From the NCBI GenBank assembly GCA_016872645.1, contig VGZH01000046.1, positions 1-46,209 of the forward strand: a stretch of 46,209 nucleotides of DNA. The letters run 5' to 3'. A model generated the notes under the pieces. The model ran no database searches. It worked only from the letters and a program-made list of their open reading frames with translations, and was not told the DNA's origin. The DNA is from Planctomycetota bacterium. GTDB taxonomy: Bacteria > Planctomycetota > Planctomycetia > Planctomycetales > Planctomycetaceae. The position numbers and the translations under genes were made by a program. This document shows, in pieces, positions 53-23,869 of this stretch (positions within the stretch are counted from its first letter, which is position 1; each line of letters starts with the position of its first letter).

Positions 53-1867
53 ATGTGGTCTTCACGACTCTTCTGACGCTTGTTTCTGACCTACGCCGTG
101 TTGACCGTCGTAGCGGCGGCATTCTTCATCGTGTTGTTTCAGAGTCGCCAGCGCGAGGCGATTGAGTCCGAAGTGCGGCAGCGATTACAGGACGAGGCCG
201 CCGTCCTGGGAGTGTTCACCGAAGCGGCTTGGCAATCGTCCGACACGCCCGTGGAAGAACTGCGAGCAACGTGGCAGCCAAAATTGCAACCACTGGGCCG
301 TGAGGTCGGGCCCCGGTTGACCTTGGTGCGTGCAGGTGGGACGGTGCTGTCGGACTCATGATCGGATGCGCGACAGATGGAGAATCATCGCGAGCGTCCG
401 GAGATTGAGCAGGCGGCGGAACACGGAGTTGGTTTCGTGGCGCGGCCGAGTCTGTCTGTCGGTGAGCCTTATGGATACTGCGCGGTGCGAGTCGACTCCC
501 GCGAAAAACTGCGCGGGTTTGTGCTCGTCGCTCTGCCGTGGACTCCGTTCGAAGCACGCCTGAAGGCGGCCTCGCGGTTGGTTGCGGGAACGGCCGTGGT
601 GGTCACGCTGGCGGCACTGCTGGCGAGCTACCTGCTGGGACGGCGCCTGGTCGGGCCGCTGGAACGATTGACTCTGGCAGCACAGTCAATCGCCGCCGGA
701 GATTTCGGGCAGGAAGTCGTGGTTCGCAATCATGACGAGATTGGAACACTGGCTCACGCGTTCAACACGATGGGTCGTGAGTTGGCGCAGCGGGTTGAGC
801 AGCTTCAAGCCAGTCGGCGACAATCCGAAGAGAACAGCGAACTAATGGAAACGGTGCTCGGCTCGATGGTGGAAGGGGTCGTTGTGATCCACTCTGGGAA
901 ACGCATCCTCTACGCGAATGCGGCGGCCGGGCCGTTGCTCGACTTGCCGACGGCTCAAGCCACGGGACGGTCAATCTTCGAGGCCGCTCGAAATCCGCGC
1001 GTGCAAAAAGTTGTCGAGGAAGTGCTGGTCGGACGTGTTCCGGAACGTGTCGAATACGAAGTGCCGCGCACGAACGCCATCGTCGCGTGAATTGCCTCGC
1101 TCTTGCCGAGCAATCCACCGCCGGGCGCCGTATTGGTCTTGCACGACGTGACTGAGTTGCGACGACTTGAGAATCTGCGGCGCGAATTTGTCTCGAACGT
1201 CTCCCACGAGTTGAAGACTCCGTTGACGACGATCCAGGCCTACACGGAGACGTTGCTCGACGGTGCAATCAACGACCCTGAAAACAACCGGAAGTTTCTC
1301 GAGCGAATCGACGAACAGGCCGAACGTCTGCACAAACTGATCCTCGATTTGCTGAGCCTCGCACGCATCGAAGCCGCTGAGGACGCCTACGAATTGTTGC
1401 CAGTCCCAGTCGCGAACACTGTGCAAGTTTGCGTGGATGAGTACTTGCCGGTTGCCGAGTCCAAAGGAGTCGAGTTGCAGGTGCAGCCGCCGTCTGAAGC
1501 CCTCGTCGTCTGGGCCGACGACGAGGGCTTGCTGACGGTGCTCAATAATCTGTTGGACAACGCGATCAAGTACACTCCATCAGGCGGCAGTGTGTCGATT
1601 CGCTGGCATGTCGAGGGCCGCCGCACGGTGCTCGAGGTCGAAGACACCGGTATTGGTATTCCGAAGCAACATCAATCTCGTGTCTTCGAGCGGTTCTTTC
1701 GTGTGGACAAAGCTCGTTCGCGTGAACTGGGCGGGACCGGCCTGGGATTGGCGATTGTGAAACATTGGGTGCAGGTCTTCGGCGGCACCGTGGAAGTCGC
1801 CAGTGAACTCGGACGCGGCAGTCTCTTTACAATTCGACTGCCGACAGTGAGCAAGTCATCGGCGTGA
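53..1867 (+). pseudogene. PhoR-like sensor histidine kinase interrupted by three in-frame TGA codons
   Basis: Reading one frame from ATG 53 to TGA 1865 gives a complete 604-codon PhoR-type kinase: TM1 near residues 8-28, an extracytoplasmic region with the conserved MENHRERPE motif, TM2 near 178-198, HAMP about 200-250, a PAS region about 270-345, HisKA with the phosphorylated His at about 385 (NVSHELKTPL), and a GHKL ATPase with NNLLDNAIKYT, DTGIGI and GGTGLGLAI. Three TGA codons break it at 74-76, 359-361 and 1088-1090 (codons 8, 103, 346). The first sits in MWSSRLF-TGA-RLFLTYA, where a Trp is expected. No frameshift is needed, and each stop is one transition from TGG or CGA. Short products starting at TTG 80, ATG 377 or TTG 1103 are possible. 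The last would be a soluble HisKA-ATPase fragment. The gene would sense phosphate for the downstream DUF47 and PiT genes. It is either a young pseudogene or an assembly error; recoding is unlikely because other genes here end in TGA. Confidence 0.75.
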
Positions 1868-1996
1868 CCGGGTTGCGAGTCGGTCCGTCGTCCGAGTAGA
1901 TTGCGGCCCGTAAAGATTGTGGGGAAACTTTGAACGTTCTGTACAAATGTGTTTTGTAATTCGCCATTTGCCCTCGTTGCATGCTCAAGGAGCACC

Positions 1997-2629
1997 ATGC
2001 GATTCTCTTTGATTCCGCGGGAACAGAAATTCTTCGACCAGTTCGACGCAGCGGCCACGCTTATCGTCACTGCGGCACAGACGTTTGCGGAACTCGTCGA
2101 CCAATTCGATCACCGCGAACGGCGCATGAATGAGCTGCGCGAACTGGAGCACAAGTGCGACATCGCCGTCGAGGGGATCTTGACGTCGCTTGGCCGTACG
2201 TTCATCACGCCATTCGATCGCGAAGATATTCACACGCTGGCGACAAGCCTCGATGATGTGCTCGATAACTTGGAAGAGGCCGCGTTCCGGCTGACCGCGT
2301 TTGGCATCGAAAAGCCGACGCCCGAAGCGGTCAAGATGGCGCTGATCATCCAAGAGTCATGCAACCATGTGCAGAAAGCCGTGAGCATGCTCCGCAAGAA
2401 CAAGCACATCAGCTCCGAGAAGATGGCCATTGAATTGCGTGAGATCAGCCGATTGGAAAACATGGCCGATGAGGTGTTCCGCAACGTCGAGGCCGATCTG
2501 TTCGCTGACCCTCCGGAAATCATGACGTTTATCAAACAGAGAGAAGTGTATGCGTGGTTGGAAAACACCGTCGATGCCTGTCGCGACGTGGCGCATGTGA
2601 TCAACGAGATTGTCGTGAAGGCAAGTTGA
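1997..2629 (+). CDS. DUF47/PhoU-like phosphate transport regulator
   Basis: A 210-residue, all-helical protein of the DUF47 (TIGR00153, PhoU-like) family. The start MRFSLIPREQKFFDQF is typical of the family, as is the later RELEHKCDIAVEGILTSL segment with its spaced acidic residues, thought to bind metal. The start at 1997 is preferred over upstream in-frame starts because AAGGAG lies at 1987-1992 and family members begin at this MRF. It lies 39 bp before a PiT-type phosphate transporter. In other bacteria this pairing regulates or couples Pi uptake by the transporter. The length matches the usual 205-225 residues. Confidence 0.9.
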   Translation: MRFSLIPREQKFFDQFDAAATLIVTAAQTFAELVDQFDHRERRMNELRELEHKCDIAVEGILTSLGRTFITPFDREDIHTLATSLDDVLDNLEEAAFRLTAFGIEKPTPEAVKMALIIQESCNHVQKAVSMLRKNKHISSEKMAIELREISRLENMADEVFRNVEADLFADPPEIMTFIKQREVYAWLENTVDACRDVAHVINEIVVKAS

Positions 2630-2668
2630 GCGTTTCAACCGCACCTTGCCAAAATGGAGCGACTCTGA

Positions 2669-3757
2669 ATGGAAGCGATCGATCAGGTCTTTGGAGAATT
2701 CGCGCGCGATATGGGGCAGATTGTGCAGCATCCCTATGTGCTGCTCATTCTGGTTGTGGCCCTGGCGTTCGATTTCATCAACGGATTTCATGATGCAGCG
2801 AACTCAATTGCGACGGTGGTCGGCACGCGCGTGCTGCGGCCTCTGCCTGCGGTGATCTGGGCCGCGTGGTGGAACTTTGCCGCTGCCTGGGTGTTTGGCG
2901 TCGCGATCGCCAACACCGTCGGAAAGATGGTCCACAAGGAGTTTGTCACGCCCGACGTGATCTTCGCCGGATTGATCGGGGCCATCGTGTGGGACTTGAT
3001 CACGTGGTATGTCGGCTTGCCCACCAGTTCCTCGCACGCCTTGCTGGGTGGATTCGGTGGAGCGGCGATGGCTCACGCCTGGAAGTTCTCCGGCGTGCTG
3101 CAATGGGAACGCTTCCTCAAGACGGTGCAGTACATCGTGATCTCGCCGTTCGTGGGACTCGTTCTGGCTTTAGTCTTGATCATTGGATTGTTGTGGACTT
3201 TTCGGAACGCGCTCCCCTCCAAAGTGGATCGGTGGTTCCGAATGGCGCAGCTCGGTTCCGCCGCGGCATTCAGCTTGGGGCATGGCACCAACGACGCCCA
3301 GAAGACGATGGGCATCGTCGCCGCGTTGATGTACGCGACTCTATGGAAAGAGCGGCAAGCCGGATTCGAGTCTGGCAAAGAGACCTTTCCCTTTTGGATC
3401 GTGCTGATCTGCCATCTGGCGATCGGACTCGGGACGTTGTGCGGCGGCTGGCGCATCGTAAAGACGATGGGGTTGAAAATCGCCAAGTTGAGGCCATACA
3501 GCGGAGCCTGTGCCGAAACAGCCGCGGCAGTGGCGCTGTTCGGCACGGCTCATTTAGGGATTCCCGTCAGCACCACGCACACGATCACCGGTGCGATCGT
3601 TGGTGTCGGAGCCGTTCAGCGATTTTCAGCCGTCCAATGGGGAGTCGCTCGCCGAGTCATCTGGGCGTGGGTCTTGACGATTCCAGCATCCGGTGTGGTC
3701 GCCGCTGTATCTTACGGCGTGATTGCCGGCATTCGTGGCTTGTTTGAAGGTCGTTGA
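2669..3757 (+). CDS. pit: PiT-family inorganic phosphate transporter
   Basis: A 362-residue integral membrane protein of the PiT family (low-affinity phosphate:cation symporter). Both halves of the duplicated PHO4 domain show their signature: GFHDAANSIATVVGTR near residues 38-53 and SLGHGTNDAQKTMG near 202-215. In both, the Asn/Asp pair is thought to bind phosphate or cation. About 9-10 hydrophobic segments are visible. TGGAGCG precedes the ATG by a few bases. It follows the DUF47 gene as a two-gene unit. Length fits the short bacterial PiT subclass that travels with DUF47. The substrate could be another oxyanion, but phosphate is by far the most common. Confidence 0.92.
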   Translation: MEAIDQVFGEFARDMGQIVQHPYVLLILVVALAFDFINGFHDAANSIATVVGTRVLRPLPAVIWAAWWNFAAAWVFGVAIANTVGKMVHKEFVTPDVIFAGLIGAIVWDLITWYVGLPTSSSHALLGGFGGAAMAHAWKFSGVLQWERFLKTVQYIVISPFVGLVLALVLIIGLLWTFRNALPSKVDRWFRMAQLGSAAAFSLGHGTNDAQKTMGIVAALMYATLWKERQAGFESGKETFPFWIVLICHLAIGLGTLCGGWRIVKTMGLKIAKLRPYSGACAETAAAVALFGTAHLGIPVSTTHTITGAIVGVGAVQRFSAVQWGVARRVIWAWVLTIPASGVVAAVSYGVIAGIRGLFEGR

Positions 3758-4221
3758 ATTCCAGCCTTCAGAAGCCAGTTCGAATTGGCACAAGTTCGCC
3801 GTTAGTGTTTTTTAACACCCCGTCACTCTGAAGCAATCTGAAGTAAGACTCCGTGGAGAGATCGCGATTGCTGGTTCGAGCACGGTTTTCCTGATCGCCG
3901 ACAAAGCCGAAAAAGCGTTCTCGGCATTGCATGCGGACGTGTAGATCGGCCGGGTTGAGGGTGGGATTGGGGGCGGATGTTCGAAGTCTGCTCGCGGCGA
4001 ACTCGACATCGCCAACGCCCCGCGACCGGGCGCACTTTCGGTGACGGCAGAAGGGCCTGAGATTGCAAATTGCAAATTGCAAATCTCAAATTGCGAATTG
4101 AGCGGCATGGTTGTGTCGCTGGCTGGTTTGTTGTCTGATGCCGGCTTGACTGAGTTCCTGCCTCGCCAATTTGCAGCTTGCCGTTTGCAATTTGCAATTT
4201 GCAATTCCCTCCTCGGTTTCG
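3758..4221. other. 464-bp intergenic region, no supported gene
   Basis: Between the PiT gene and ribF I see no gene I can support. Several open frames exist on the minus strand but start inside repeats and match nothing I recognise. The region holds a short perfect palindrome (GTGTTTTTTAACAC, about 3803-3816) soon after the PiT stop, and the two oppositely oriented TTGCAAAT-type repeat tracts at 4061-4101 and 4166-4207, described separately. Confidence 0.5.
4061..4207. repeat. Inverted tracts of TTGCAAAT-type repeat before ribF
   Basis: The left tract (4061-4101) iterates ATTGCAA three times and continues with related words. The right tract (4166-4207) iterates the complement TTTGCAATTTGCAATTTGCA. 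The two tracts face each other across about 65 bp. A third copy of the same word family lies at 25139-25215 after metK. The right tract ends 14 bp before the ribF start and is translated in the upstream extension of the ribF frame, which I therefore leave out of the gene. Confidence 0.8.
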
Positions 4222-20868: not shown

Positions 20869-22323
20869 TCATTCTGTGGGTGCCGCGGCGGAGTTGTCGC
20901 GGTAATTCAACGCCGGCTTTTGATCCTTCGGAAATCGAGTTTGATAGCTCTTGCCCGCGCGGCGCTTGTCAAAACTCTCGCGAGCGGCGGCGACTTGCTT
21001 GGGATCGTTGAACAGTTCGAGCGTGGCGAGCGTCAGCGTCTTGGTGGCGATCACCATCCCTTTGTGTCCGACCGTTGTCCCGCCGCAGGCGACCGCTTGC
21101 CACGAGTGCATCGGCACTCCGGGAAACACGCACGCAGTCGAAAAGCCGCCAGTCGGGACCGCCCAGCTCACGTCGCCGACGTCGGTCGAACCGTAGCGTT
21201 GGTCTTCGCTAATCGATTTCACTTTTGCAGCTTCGGTCAACGGCGGCAGTTCGGAACGCAACAAACTCGGACGCAGCGTTTCGGCGAAGGCGATCTCTTC
21301 TGCTGAGTACGTCACTCCGCCGATCGCTCGCAGGTGTCCGTCGAGCAACTTGGCGAGCGCATCATTCGGTAGCAGGTTCGCCGTATTGCCGACGAGTTCC
21401 AGTGAGCGTGTCGTCTCGGTCGCGATCGCAGCCCCCTCGGCACACTTTTCGATGCGAGCCCAAATGCCGTCGAGCGTTTTCGGGTCGGGATGCCGAGCGT
21501 ACATGTAAACCTCGGCAAAGTCCGGCACGATGTTTGGTGCATTGCCGCCATTGGTGATGACGTAGTGCAGCCGACTTTCCTGCGGCACATGCTCGCGCAG
21601 CAGATCGACCGCGTGAGCGAACAGCATCACGGCATCCAGTGCTGACCGTGCTTGATGCGGAGCCCCCGCTGCGTGTGCCGCCTTGCCTCGGAAACGAAAC
21701 TTGCCGCTGATATTCGCGAGGTTCGTTTCGAGGCCCGCTCGATTTTCCGATCCCGGATGCCAGTGCAGCACGACGTCGCAGTCCTTAAACAAGCCGGCCC
21801 GGACCATGAAGACTTTGCCGCTTCCTCCCTCTTCGGCCGGGCAGCCGTACAGCCGCAGCGTCCCCTGAAGCTTCTTGGAGACAAGTTCCTCTTTGACCGC
21901 GATGGCTGACCACGTCGAGGCAGTCCCGAACAAGTGATGCCCGCACGCGTGCCCCGCCTTATTCGACTTGAGCGGCTGCTTGCTCGGCGCGGCTTCTTGT
22001 TCCATGCCAGGAAGTGCGTCGTATTCCGCGAGGATGCCGATGACCGGCTTGCCGCTGCCGAACTCGGCCACGAACGCGGTCGGGATTTCGGCGACTCCCC
22101 GTTGGACGTCGAAGCCCGCGGCTTCGAGTTCGTCCGCCAACAACGACGAGCTTTGAACCTCTTTGTAGCCCACCTCGGCCCAGCGCCAGATCTTCGACGC
22201 AATCTCGACGTACTTCGGCCGTTGAGCGTCGATCCGGTCGAGCAGTTCATCCGCCGCCAGTCCCGTTGGCTGGAGGGTACCGATTAGTAGCATCGCGGTT
22301 GTGAGAATGTCTGATCGTCGCAT
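20869..22323 (-). CDS. Secreted M20-family amidohydrolase (AbgB-like)
   Basis: A 484-residue M20 peptidase/amidohydrolase with a signal peptide (about residues 1-24). GILAEYDALPGM carries the first metal-binding region, and KAGHACGHHLFGTAS the central His. The Glu pair is in CPAEEGGSGK, and the dimerisation domain follows (GKFRFRGKAAHAAGAPH). It resembles AbgB, which cleaves p-aminobenzoyl-glutamate and related amides. It follows the amidase gene by 19 bp, so the two may degrade amide compounds together. AAGGAT lies upstream of the ATG. Confidence 0.9.
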   Translation of the reverse strand: MRRSDILTTAMLLIGTLQPTGLAADELLDRIDAQRPKYVEIASKIWRWAEVGYKEVQSSSLLADELEAAGFDVQRGVAEIPTAFVAEFGSGKPVIGILAEYDALPGMEQEAAPSKQPLKSNKAGHACGHHLFGTASTWSAIAVKEELVSKKLQGTLRLYGCPAEEGGSGKVFMVRAGLFKDCDVVLHWHPGSENRAGLETNLANISGKFRFRGKAAHAAGAPHQARSALDAVMLFAHAVDLLREHVPQESRLHYVITNGGNAPNIVPDFAEVYMYARHPDPKTLDGIWARIEKCAEGAAIATETTRSLELVGNTANLLPNDALAKLLDGHLRAIGGVTYSAEEIAFAETLRPSLLRSELPPLTEAAKVKSISEDQRYGSTDVGDVSWAVPTGGFSTACVFPGVPMHSWQAVACGGTTVGHKGMVIATKTLTLATLELFNDPKQVAAARESFDKRRAGKSYQTRFPKDQKPALNYRDNSAAAPTE

Positions 22324-22342
22324 GAGAGACCATCCTTCGGCG

Positions 22343-23677
22343 TCACTTCTGAGCCAGCGCCGCTTCGCACCACCGAGCGGCTCGGAATAGTTCGAGATCC
22401 TGCCCCGGTCCAGCGATCAACTGTAATCCAAGCGGAAGCCCCTCCGACGAGAGCGACATCGGAATCGTGATCGTCGGAAAGCCCAGGAAGCTCCACGGCG
22501 AATTCATGCAGGGATCACCGGTTGTCTCCGGCGTCGGCGCAGCCCCGCGAGAGGCGGGCATCAGCCAGATTGAGTCGCCGATCGCGTTGGCTGCTCTTCG
22601 TCGCAGGGCTCGCTGAAACTGTAACGCGATTGCGTAATCGACGGATCGCGCGGACAAGCCTTCCTCGATCAAGCCTCGCACGGCGGGAGTGAACTTTTCT
22701 GGATGTTGTCGCAACTGATCGGCTTGAGACGCCGCGATCTCGACCGACATGACGCAGCGATGCCGAGTCCATAGCGTCGGCAGTTCCAGCTCCGCAGCCT
22801 CCGAGTCGGACATCATCGCACCGGCCAAGGTCAAGCGTTGGGTGGCAGCGTCGAAGGCGTCGCGCATGGCTGGTTCCGTCTTCTCGGTGAACTCGCCGCG
22901 CAATCTCTCGAACCACGGCAGCTCTTCGATGTTGAACAGCAATGGCTCGCTGAGCAGTTGCAGCAGGTCCAACCGTAGAGCCTTCGGTGCCATCGCGGTC
23001 GTCATCGCCAGCAGGTCGTCCACCGTTCGCGCCATCGGGCCGGGGTGATCGAGGCTTGGCGCGAACGGAAACATCCCGCGCCGGCTCAGCAAGCCGAACG
23101 ACGGCTTGTACCCCGCCACTCCGCAGAACGCAGCCGGACGTGTGATCGAGCCGCCCGTCTGCGAGCCAAGCGCTCCAAGACACATGCCACTGGCGACTGC
23201 AGCTGCCGAACCGCTCGATGATCCACCCGGCGTCCGATCGAGGTTCCACGGATTACGAGTCGGCGGTGGATCGAAAAAAGCATAAGGCGTCGTTACCGTC
23301 TTGCCAACGATCACTGCTCCCGCTTCGCGCAGTCGGTGAACCATCGTCGAGTCGGCATCGGCCGGAGCCGACGAACGATTCGGGATCCCGGCTATCGTCG
23401 GCCAACCGGCAACGTCGTAGATGTCCTTTACGCCGACCGGAATGCCATGCAGCGGCCCGCGCCAGACGCCTCGTCGGAGTTCAGCGTCGCGTTCCGCAAC
23501 GACTTGCTCGACGGAGTCTCCGCCAAAGTTGACCCAGGCTTTGATGGTCGGATCGAGTTCCGCAGTGACCGAGCGACAGCGTGCAAACACCTCGCGGCAA
23601 GTCGTTTGACGGTTTTGGATCGCCAGCGATTGGCCACGAAGGGTGTTCTCGAGTTTTGGCAGGAGTGACAGGGGCAT
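22343..23677 (-). CDS. Amidase (amidase-signature family)
   Basis: A 444-residue amidase-signature hydrolase. The Ser-cisSer-Lys triad is visible: Lys in GIPVGVKDIYDV (K84), cis-Ser in TPGGSSSGSAAA (about 153-155) and nucleophile Ser in GSQTGGSITRPA (S177). The start at 23677 (MPLSLLPKLE) has CGGAG eight bases upstream. The frame continues to 23758 through the half repeat at 23746-23767. GatA is an alternative name, but no GatB or GatC neighbour is seen, and the M20 gene next door suggests catabolic amide cleavage. It is the first gene of the minus-strand operon and divergent from metK. Confidence 0.88.
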   Translation of the reverse strand: MPLSLLPKLENTLRGQSLAIQNRQTTCREVFARCRSVTAELDPTIKAWVNFGGDSVEQVVAERDAELRRGVWRGPLHGIPVGVKDIYDVAGWPTIAGIPNRSSAPADADSTMVHRLREAGAVIVGKTVTTPYAFFDPPPTRNPWNLDRTPGGSSSGSAAAVASGMCLGALGSQTGGSITRPAAFCGVAGYKPSFGLLSRRGMFPFAPSLDHPGPMARTVDDLLAMTTAMAPKALRLDLLQLLSEPLLFNIEELPWFERLRGEFTEKTEPAMRDAFDAATQRLTLAGAMMSDSEAAELELPTLWTRHRCVMSVEIAASQADQLRQHPEKFTPAVRGLIEEGLSARSVDYAIALQFQRALRRRAANAIGDSIWLMPASRGAAPTPETTGDPCMNSPWSFLGFPTITIPMSLSSEGLPLGLQLIAGPGQDLELFRAARWCEAALAQK

Positions 23678-23767: not shown

Positions 23768-23869
23768 CGAGCGCTGCAGTAGACTTGGAATTTACGGCTC
23801 GTTGCAGCATCCGCCACGGATGGCGCATCAGTCGAGTGTGCCGTCTCCTGCCAGGCTTCTCGACCGGCG

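Follow-up and report, generated by a model that had tools for sequence, protein, structure and literature searches.

The window analysed here is a stretch of 46,209 bases that makes up one entire contig (C46) of a 5.76 Mb draft genome in 213 contigs. It opens on the plus strand with the 3' end (1-52) of a gene for an M28 peptidase with a PDZ domain, identical to positions 84228-84279 of another contig, C10, which carries the full gene. The TAG stop of the peptidase gene (50-52) is directly abutted by the ATG of a phoR gene for a sensor histidine kinase (53-1867, plus strand), whose HAMP, PAS, HisKA and HATPase_c domains all lie in one frame of 605 codons. This domain order, together with the adjacent phosphate genes, is that of a PhoR-type histidine kinase, with a putative role in phosphate sensing. 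The preliminary description had reported three in-frame UGA codons and no frameshift in this gene, and translation confirmed three internal stops and no more, each a TGA, at codons 8 (74-76), 103 (359-361) and 346 (1088-1090). The last open piece (1103-1867), starting with TTG, could encode a putative product of 254 amino acids with HisKA and HATPase_c domains.

Downstream on the same strand are intact genes for a DUF47 (PhoU_div) protein (1997-2629; the ATG at 1997 was chosen from the sequence, while the listed ORF starts from a GTG at 1949) and a PiT phosphate transporter of the PHO4 family (2669-3757). Beyond these, six PstS queries against the window detected by tblastn (E values of 3e-8 to 2e-7) a degenerate pstS-like fragment with a TAG inside (3846-4028, plus strand), 34-41% identical over 61-95 residues. 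Between the PiT gene and a riboflavin kinase gene the window also harbours, at 4062-4205, repeats of the ATTGCAAATTGCAAATT type, partly inverted; similar repeats occur downstream of phoU in a relative of the same genus, G006.

We searched for homologues of phoR in 59 genomes, comprising the own genome and 58 relatives, and obtained matches in all of them. In the other 11 genus genomes the best matches were 71-86% identical to the window gene and none had an internal stop, which argues that the stops of the window gene are not due to chance. A disrupted frame set against intact orthologues in close relatives, here in 11 of 11 genomes with one orthologue cut by a contig end, is the picture expected of a recent pseudogene. 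The cut gene, that of G009, ends at a contig end after codon 589 with the remainder on another contig; an exact 149-base overlap joins the two pieces into one gene, so that a second phoR in G009 was rejected. In G008 a TAA appears where the match ends, and it is the stop codon that terminates that gene. TGA codons also occur in several matches outside the genus; at the one locus examined (L027) the stops lie before the start or at and after the end of the gene. In a named collection the phoR query matched mostly planctomycete metagenome-assembled genomes, some titled Candidatus Kuenenia. A plasmid collection gave no match of at least 60% identity among the best 5000 records.

The 11 genus homologues and a stop-free second copy in the own genome, on contig C53, gave 12 stop-free sequences for comparison at the three sites. 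Codon 8, where a Trp had been expected, is indeed Trp in 12 of 12. All 12 begin with (M/V)WSSRLFWRLFL, and since the window gene has the same N-terminus and its start abuts the peptidase stop, codon 8 very probably belongs to the coding sequence. Codon 103 is Ser in four and Ala in eight of the homologues, and codon 346 is Leu in all 12. The origin of these two stops from CGA by one transition, as proposed in the preliminary description, does not agree with these residues; relative to the second allele described below, the change at codon 103 is a transversion, and the TGA at codon 346 differs by at least two bases from every homologue. With Trp, Ser or Ala, and Leu at the three sites, no single meaning of UGA fits. 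The statement that the gene carried no other damage was correct for frameshifts, but, the stops aside, the window gene has a replaced residue at 14 columns that do not vary among 11 homologues (G009 was omitted from this count as a near copy of G011).

Positions 1-635 of the window align without gaps to the last 635 bases of C10 (84228-84862), with 24 mismatches and identity at both ends of the alignment. This second allele has the TGA at codon 8 but not the one at codon 103; codon 346 lies outside the overlap, and no other near version of it was found in the genome. The 24 differences are scattered, consist of 15 transitions and 9 transversions, and include no indels, so that a single signature of error or damage was ruled out. 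When polarised by the relatives, 18 differences were derived in the window and six in C10, several of these being uncertain, which makes the two allele branches uneven, a point against recent inactivation. Protein-changing differences accounted for 16 of the 24, and raw pN/pS between the alleles was 0.73, as compared to 0.10-0.14 in four pairs of relatives over the same 194 codons (the fifth pair, G009 and G011, was identical there). Against G005, pN/pS was 0.12 for the C10 allele and 0.17 for the window allele. The two versions are best read as two coexisting strains meeting at a contig junction, though the C10 version could conceivably be a diverged duplicate. No second version was found at the other end of the window. 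Four other pairs of contig ends (L081/L082, L087/L088, L093/L094 and L111/L112) have exact overlaps of 126-127 bases at tRNA genes, which probably reflect the word size of the assembler.

Selection on phoR was estimated with a purpose-written branch codon model (GY94 type, F3x4, stops masked, 8 sequences). Omega was 0.098 in the background, 0.066 on the stem before the allele split and 0.576 on the two allele branches. For the allele branches, equality with the background was rejected (2dlnL 19.0, 9.5 log units) and an omega of 1 was not (2dlnL 1.6, a loss of 0.8 log units). Codons 1-194 alone behaved similarly (lnL -2645.45 with all free, -2656.48 with both at background and -2646.00 with both at 1). 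Constraint on the allele branches is relaxed, as in a recent pseudogene; a polymorphism bubble in a live gene was sought as a control among 18 contig-end stretches of the own genome and some others, and none was found. Within-species omega is described in PMC7918605 as typically nearer to 1 even in genes under selection. The whole-gene test is weak: with the second allele left out, the window lineage had an omega of 0.126 against 0.098 (2dlnL 1.61) and was not clearly relaxed, and in a five-taxon tree it had 0.133 against 0.082 (2dlnL 5.23), where G005 phoR likewise reached 0.131 (2dlnL 2.11). That whole-gene omega changed so little suggests that inactivation was recent relative to the split from G005.

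Erosion at invariant columns was pronounced in the sensor part but slight in the kinase core. Over codons 1-194 the window gene alone departed from the rest at 8 of the 88 columns that were otherwise invariant, a stop among them, as compared to 0-5 of 80-85 for the 11 others. It deviated at 5 of 86 over codons 195-346 (the stop at 346 counted), where the highest other value was 7 of 88 in the C53 copy, and at 3 of 156 over codons 347-604, where the others deviated at 0-5 of 153-158, the highest again being the C53 copy (5 of 158). Since this intact copy has the highest counts over codons 195-604, the number of deviant columns alone is no mark of a dead gene. The weak erosion of the core suggests that the core may still be constrained; either a remaining core product or a collapse of strains in the assembly could lie behind it. 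The proposal of a dead sensor with a soluble histidine-kinase core still made from the piece that begins at about 1103 draws on the 254-residue open frame with both domains, on the three replacements among 156 invariant core columns and on a core omega of 0.106 against 0.083 (2dlnL 0.66). No ribosome-binding site was seen by eye before 1103, however, nor did a simple sigma-70 scan give a promoter-like match on the plus strand near it, and recent death alone would yield the same picture. We consider such a soluble core unlikely, though it fares better than the other alternatives to recent inactivation of the whole gene.

The phoR on C53 is intact, 71% identical to the window gene, and stands in the order MR/MLE-family enzyme gene, phoR, pstS, pstC, pstA, pstB, phoU, phoB. 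Among the matches listed for the 12 genus genomes, two strong phoR matches were found in this genome only; each of the 11 others had one match above 900 bits and, among the matches listed, none else above 170 bits. In the genus phoR lies mostly at one of two sites, after the M28 peptidase gene or beside the MR/MLE gene, and this genome alone has both. It follows the peptidase gene in G004, G005, G006, G009 and G011, where phoB follows MR/MLE with no phoR or pst genes between; close homologues of the DUF47-PiT pair come next in G004, G005, G006 and G011. In G009, phoR is instead followed by a distant DUF47-PiT pair (30% and 38-50%) and pstS. In G002, G003, G007 and G010, phoR-pstSCAB-phoU stands beside MR/MLE and is followed by phoB. 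In G001 and G008, phoR is in a pst cluster on a contig different from that of MR/MLE, with a contig end upstream of the G008 phoR. The pst, phoU and phoB genes of C53 group with those of G007 (support 0.95-1.00; G006 was absent from the PstB tree and G005 from all pst and phoU trees), whereas the MR/MLE gene beside them groups with G004 (0.83), a pattern that suggests acquisition of the block; the C53 phoR itself was not placed as sister to that of G007. C53 is unlikely to be a contaminant contig, as MR/MLE and PstB have one match each in the genome under strict limits, both on C53. This contig carries at 22216-22542 a further histidine-kinase ATPase domain with one TAG inside. In G002, the MR/MLE and phoB genes on contig C43 (L128) are at zero distance from those of G009 while another copy of each is present, and this contig is probably foreign to the G002 bin.

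The neighbouring phosphate genes remain under constraint. In the window lineage omega was 0.026 for DUF47 against a background of 0.079 (2dlnL 5.33) and 0.053 for PiT against 0.099 (2dlnL 4.41), both below background, while the M28 gene was unchanged (0.073 against 0.062, 2dlnL 0.46). The pst genes at this site fared differently: G006 has pstSCAB-phoU between the PiT and riboflavin kinase genes, and the window has only the pstS-like fragment there. G005 has no pst genes at its PiT-side site and no detectable fragment, and PstB was not found in its genome, which is 90% complete. Divergence in the fragment is much greater than in phoR, and a different pstS could be its source. The earlier conclusion that death of the gene would leave phosphate control of the DUF47-PiT pair lost or rewired is not needed, given the intact PhoR-PstSCAB-PhoU-PhoB set on C53; that set might serve the DUF47-PiT pair as well.

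Of the three options raised in the preliminary description, a very recent pseudogene is the one supported, sequence error and readthrough of UGA in this gene only being unlikely. On sequence evidence the window phoR is very probably a recently inactivated gene that would no longer yield a functional product, and the intact second copy within a complete phosphate-uptake operon is the most likely reason for its death. In an ancestor, transfer, probably from a G007-like lineage, would have placed a phoR-pstSCAB-phoU-phoB block at the MR/MLE-phoB site, whereby the phoR next to M28 would have become redundant. Loss of the pst-phoU genes beside PiT would have left the pstS-like relic, and the M28-linked phoR would have gained the stop at codon 8, lost its amino-acid constraint and then collected further stops, with the DUF47-PiT pair remaining functional throughout. 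The case would then be the ordinary decay of a gene whose function had been duplicated, and its history is unusually clear. A reading in which phoR was instead turned down, successive leaky UGAs or a separate soluble core keeping trace activity beside the new PhoR-Pst operon, appears unlikely.

Readthrough proper, by near-cognate Trp insertion, a suppressor tRNA or selenocysteine, would give full-length PhoR, possibly in small amounts. Of the stop codons UGA is the leakiest, and here the frame is kept and all three stops are TGA. Only 14-27% of the nonsense changes that single-base changes produce in such sequence are TGA, and the chance of three out of three is about 0.01 (0.00 to 0.02 over eight settings); for three stops of one kind, whichever it be, arithmetic from the same figures gives about 0.15. 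Mildly odd and noticed post hoc, the coincidence nevertheless remains the strongest point for a leaky UGA. In-frame stops with dN/dS below 1, reported in PMC7918605 as widespread in bacteria, also count in its favour. The genome has a tRNA-Sec gene (G000:C16:33079-33171) above the Rfam cut-off, so that the organism probably makes selenoproteins; selenocysteine at the phoR stops was nonetheless rejected, as Cys occurs at none of the sites in the 12 homologues. In one of the two tRNA-Trp genes the anticodon stem closes at its loop end with a T-G pair, a further point for readthrough. This gene belongs to an array of 16 same-strand tRNA genes (G000:C12:12271-16309; L076), most anticodons of which (Cys, Trp, Ser, Pro and others) occur elsewhere too, and which may be part of a mobile element.

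A hairpin 3' of codon 103 (z -2.29, 5 of 200 shuffles being as good) is stronger than in the C10 allele (-18.2 against -14.7 kcal/mol), a strength that only 82 of 2000 randomly mutated versions of the C10 allele attain. It was dropped as a readthrough signal: six of the 12 stop-free homologues are within 1.5 kcal/mol or better (-16.8 to -19.6), and the hairpin ranks 68th among 588 windows of phoR. The RNA after the TGAs at codons 8 and 346 is not unusual. Readthrough confined to this gene is improbable because the homologue residues differ among the three sites, with no one consistent residue for UGA, because change between the alleles is near neutral, and because none of the 64 tRNAs (RF00005 matches; 150 of 155 candidates scored) has a UCA anticodon. 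The release factor RF2 (prfB) is present above its cut-off, and phoR, DUF47 and PiT themselves terminate in TGA. Elsewhere in the genome TGA seems to be a normal stop. Genome-wide reassignment was rejected on RF2, the tRNAs and a survey of stops in the window; translation table 4 would fuse neighbouring genes, for example over 53-3805. The survey compared the window up to 37,667 with stretches of G006 and G005 (32 best-scoring reference frames, 34,667 bases). Stops did occur in other frames, but phoR was the sole sense-strand frame with stops between equally conserved flanks: of six frames with stops, one was phoR, four had them upstream of the start codon of the listed ORF (2666, 13185, 23905, and 23830 with 23794) and one was antisense. 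The gene at 23830/23794, where identity on either side is 0.42-0.57, possibly has a shortened 5' end.

Sequencing or assembly errors in the draft contig, with the real gene intact, are just as improbable: although the gene lies where two assembled versions overlap at the end of a contig, a weak place for assemblies, and the second TGA is absent from the C10 version, both versions share the first TGA, their 24 differences are scattered, of mixed type and free of indels, and the third TGA lies beyond the overlap, with no other near version in the genome.

An apparent case of in-frame UGA could here be resolved from sequence alone, the relatives giving the residues, the second allele the age and rate, and the rest of the genome the likely reason; within one planctomycete genus, a phosphate-sensing locus seems to have been caught while a different arrangement of these genes was replacing it. 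The window gene shares with PhoR/PnpS-type kinases the order HAMP-PAS-HisKA-HATPase_c, adjacent phosphate genes and genus relatives 71-86% identical, but three in-frame TGAs disrupt it, in this genome alone. With recent nonsense pseudogenes it shares stops at conserved coding sites, relaxed constraint between alleles and an intact second copy, but it has no frameshift yet, all its stops are TGA and its kinase core is little eroded. The prokaryotic genes with in-frame stops described in PMC7918605 likewise have stops inside an otherwise homologous frame, and the raw pN/pS of 0.73 resembles the dN/dS of 0.73 given there for an example family. In that study, however, attention centres on stops shared by at least two species, whereas the phoR stops occur in one species and the residues of the homologues at these sites differ.
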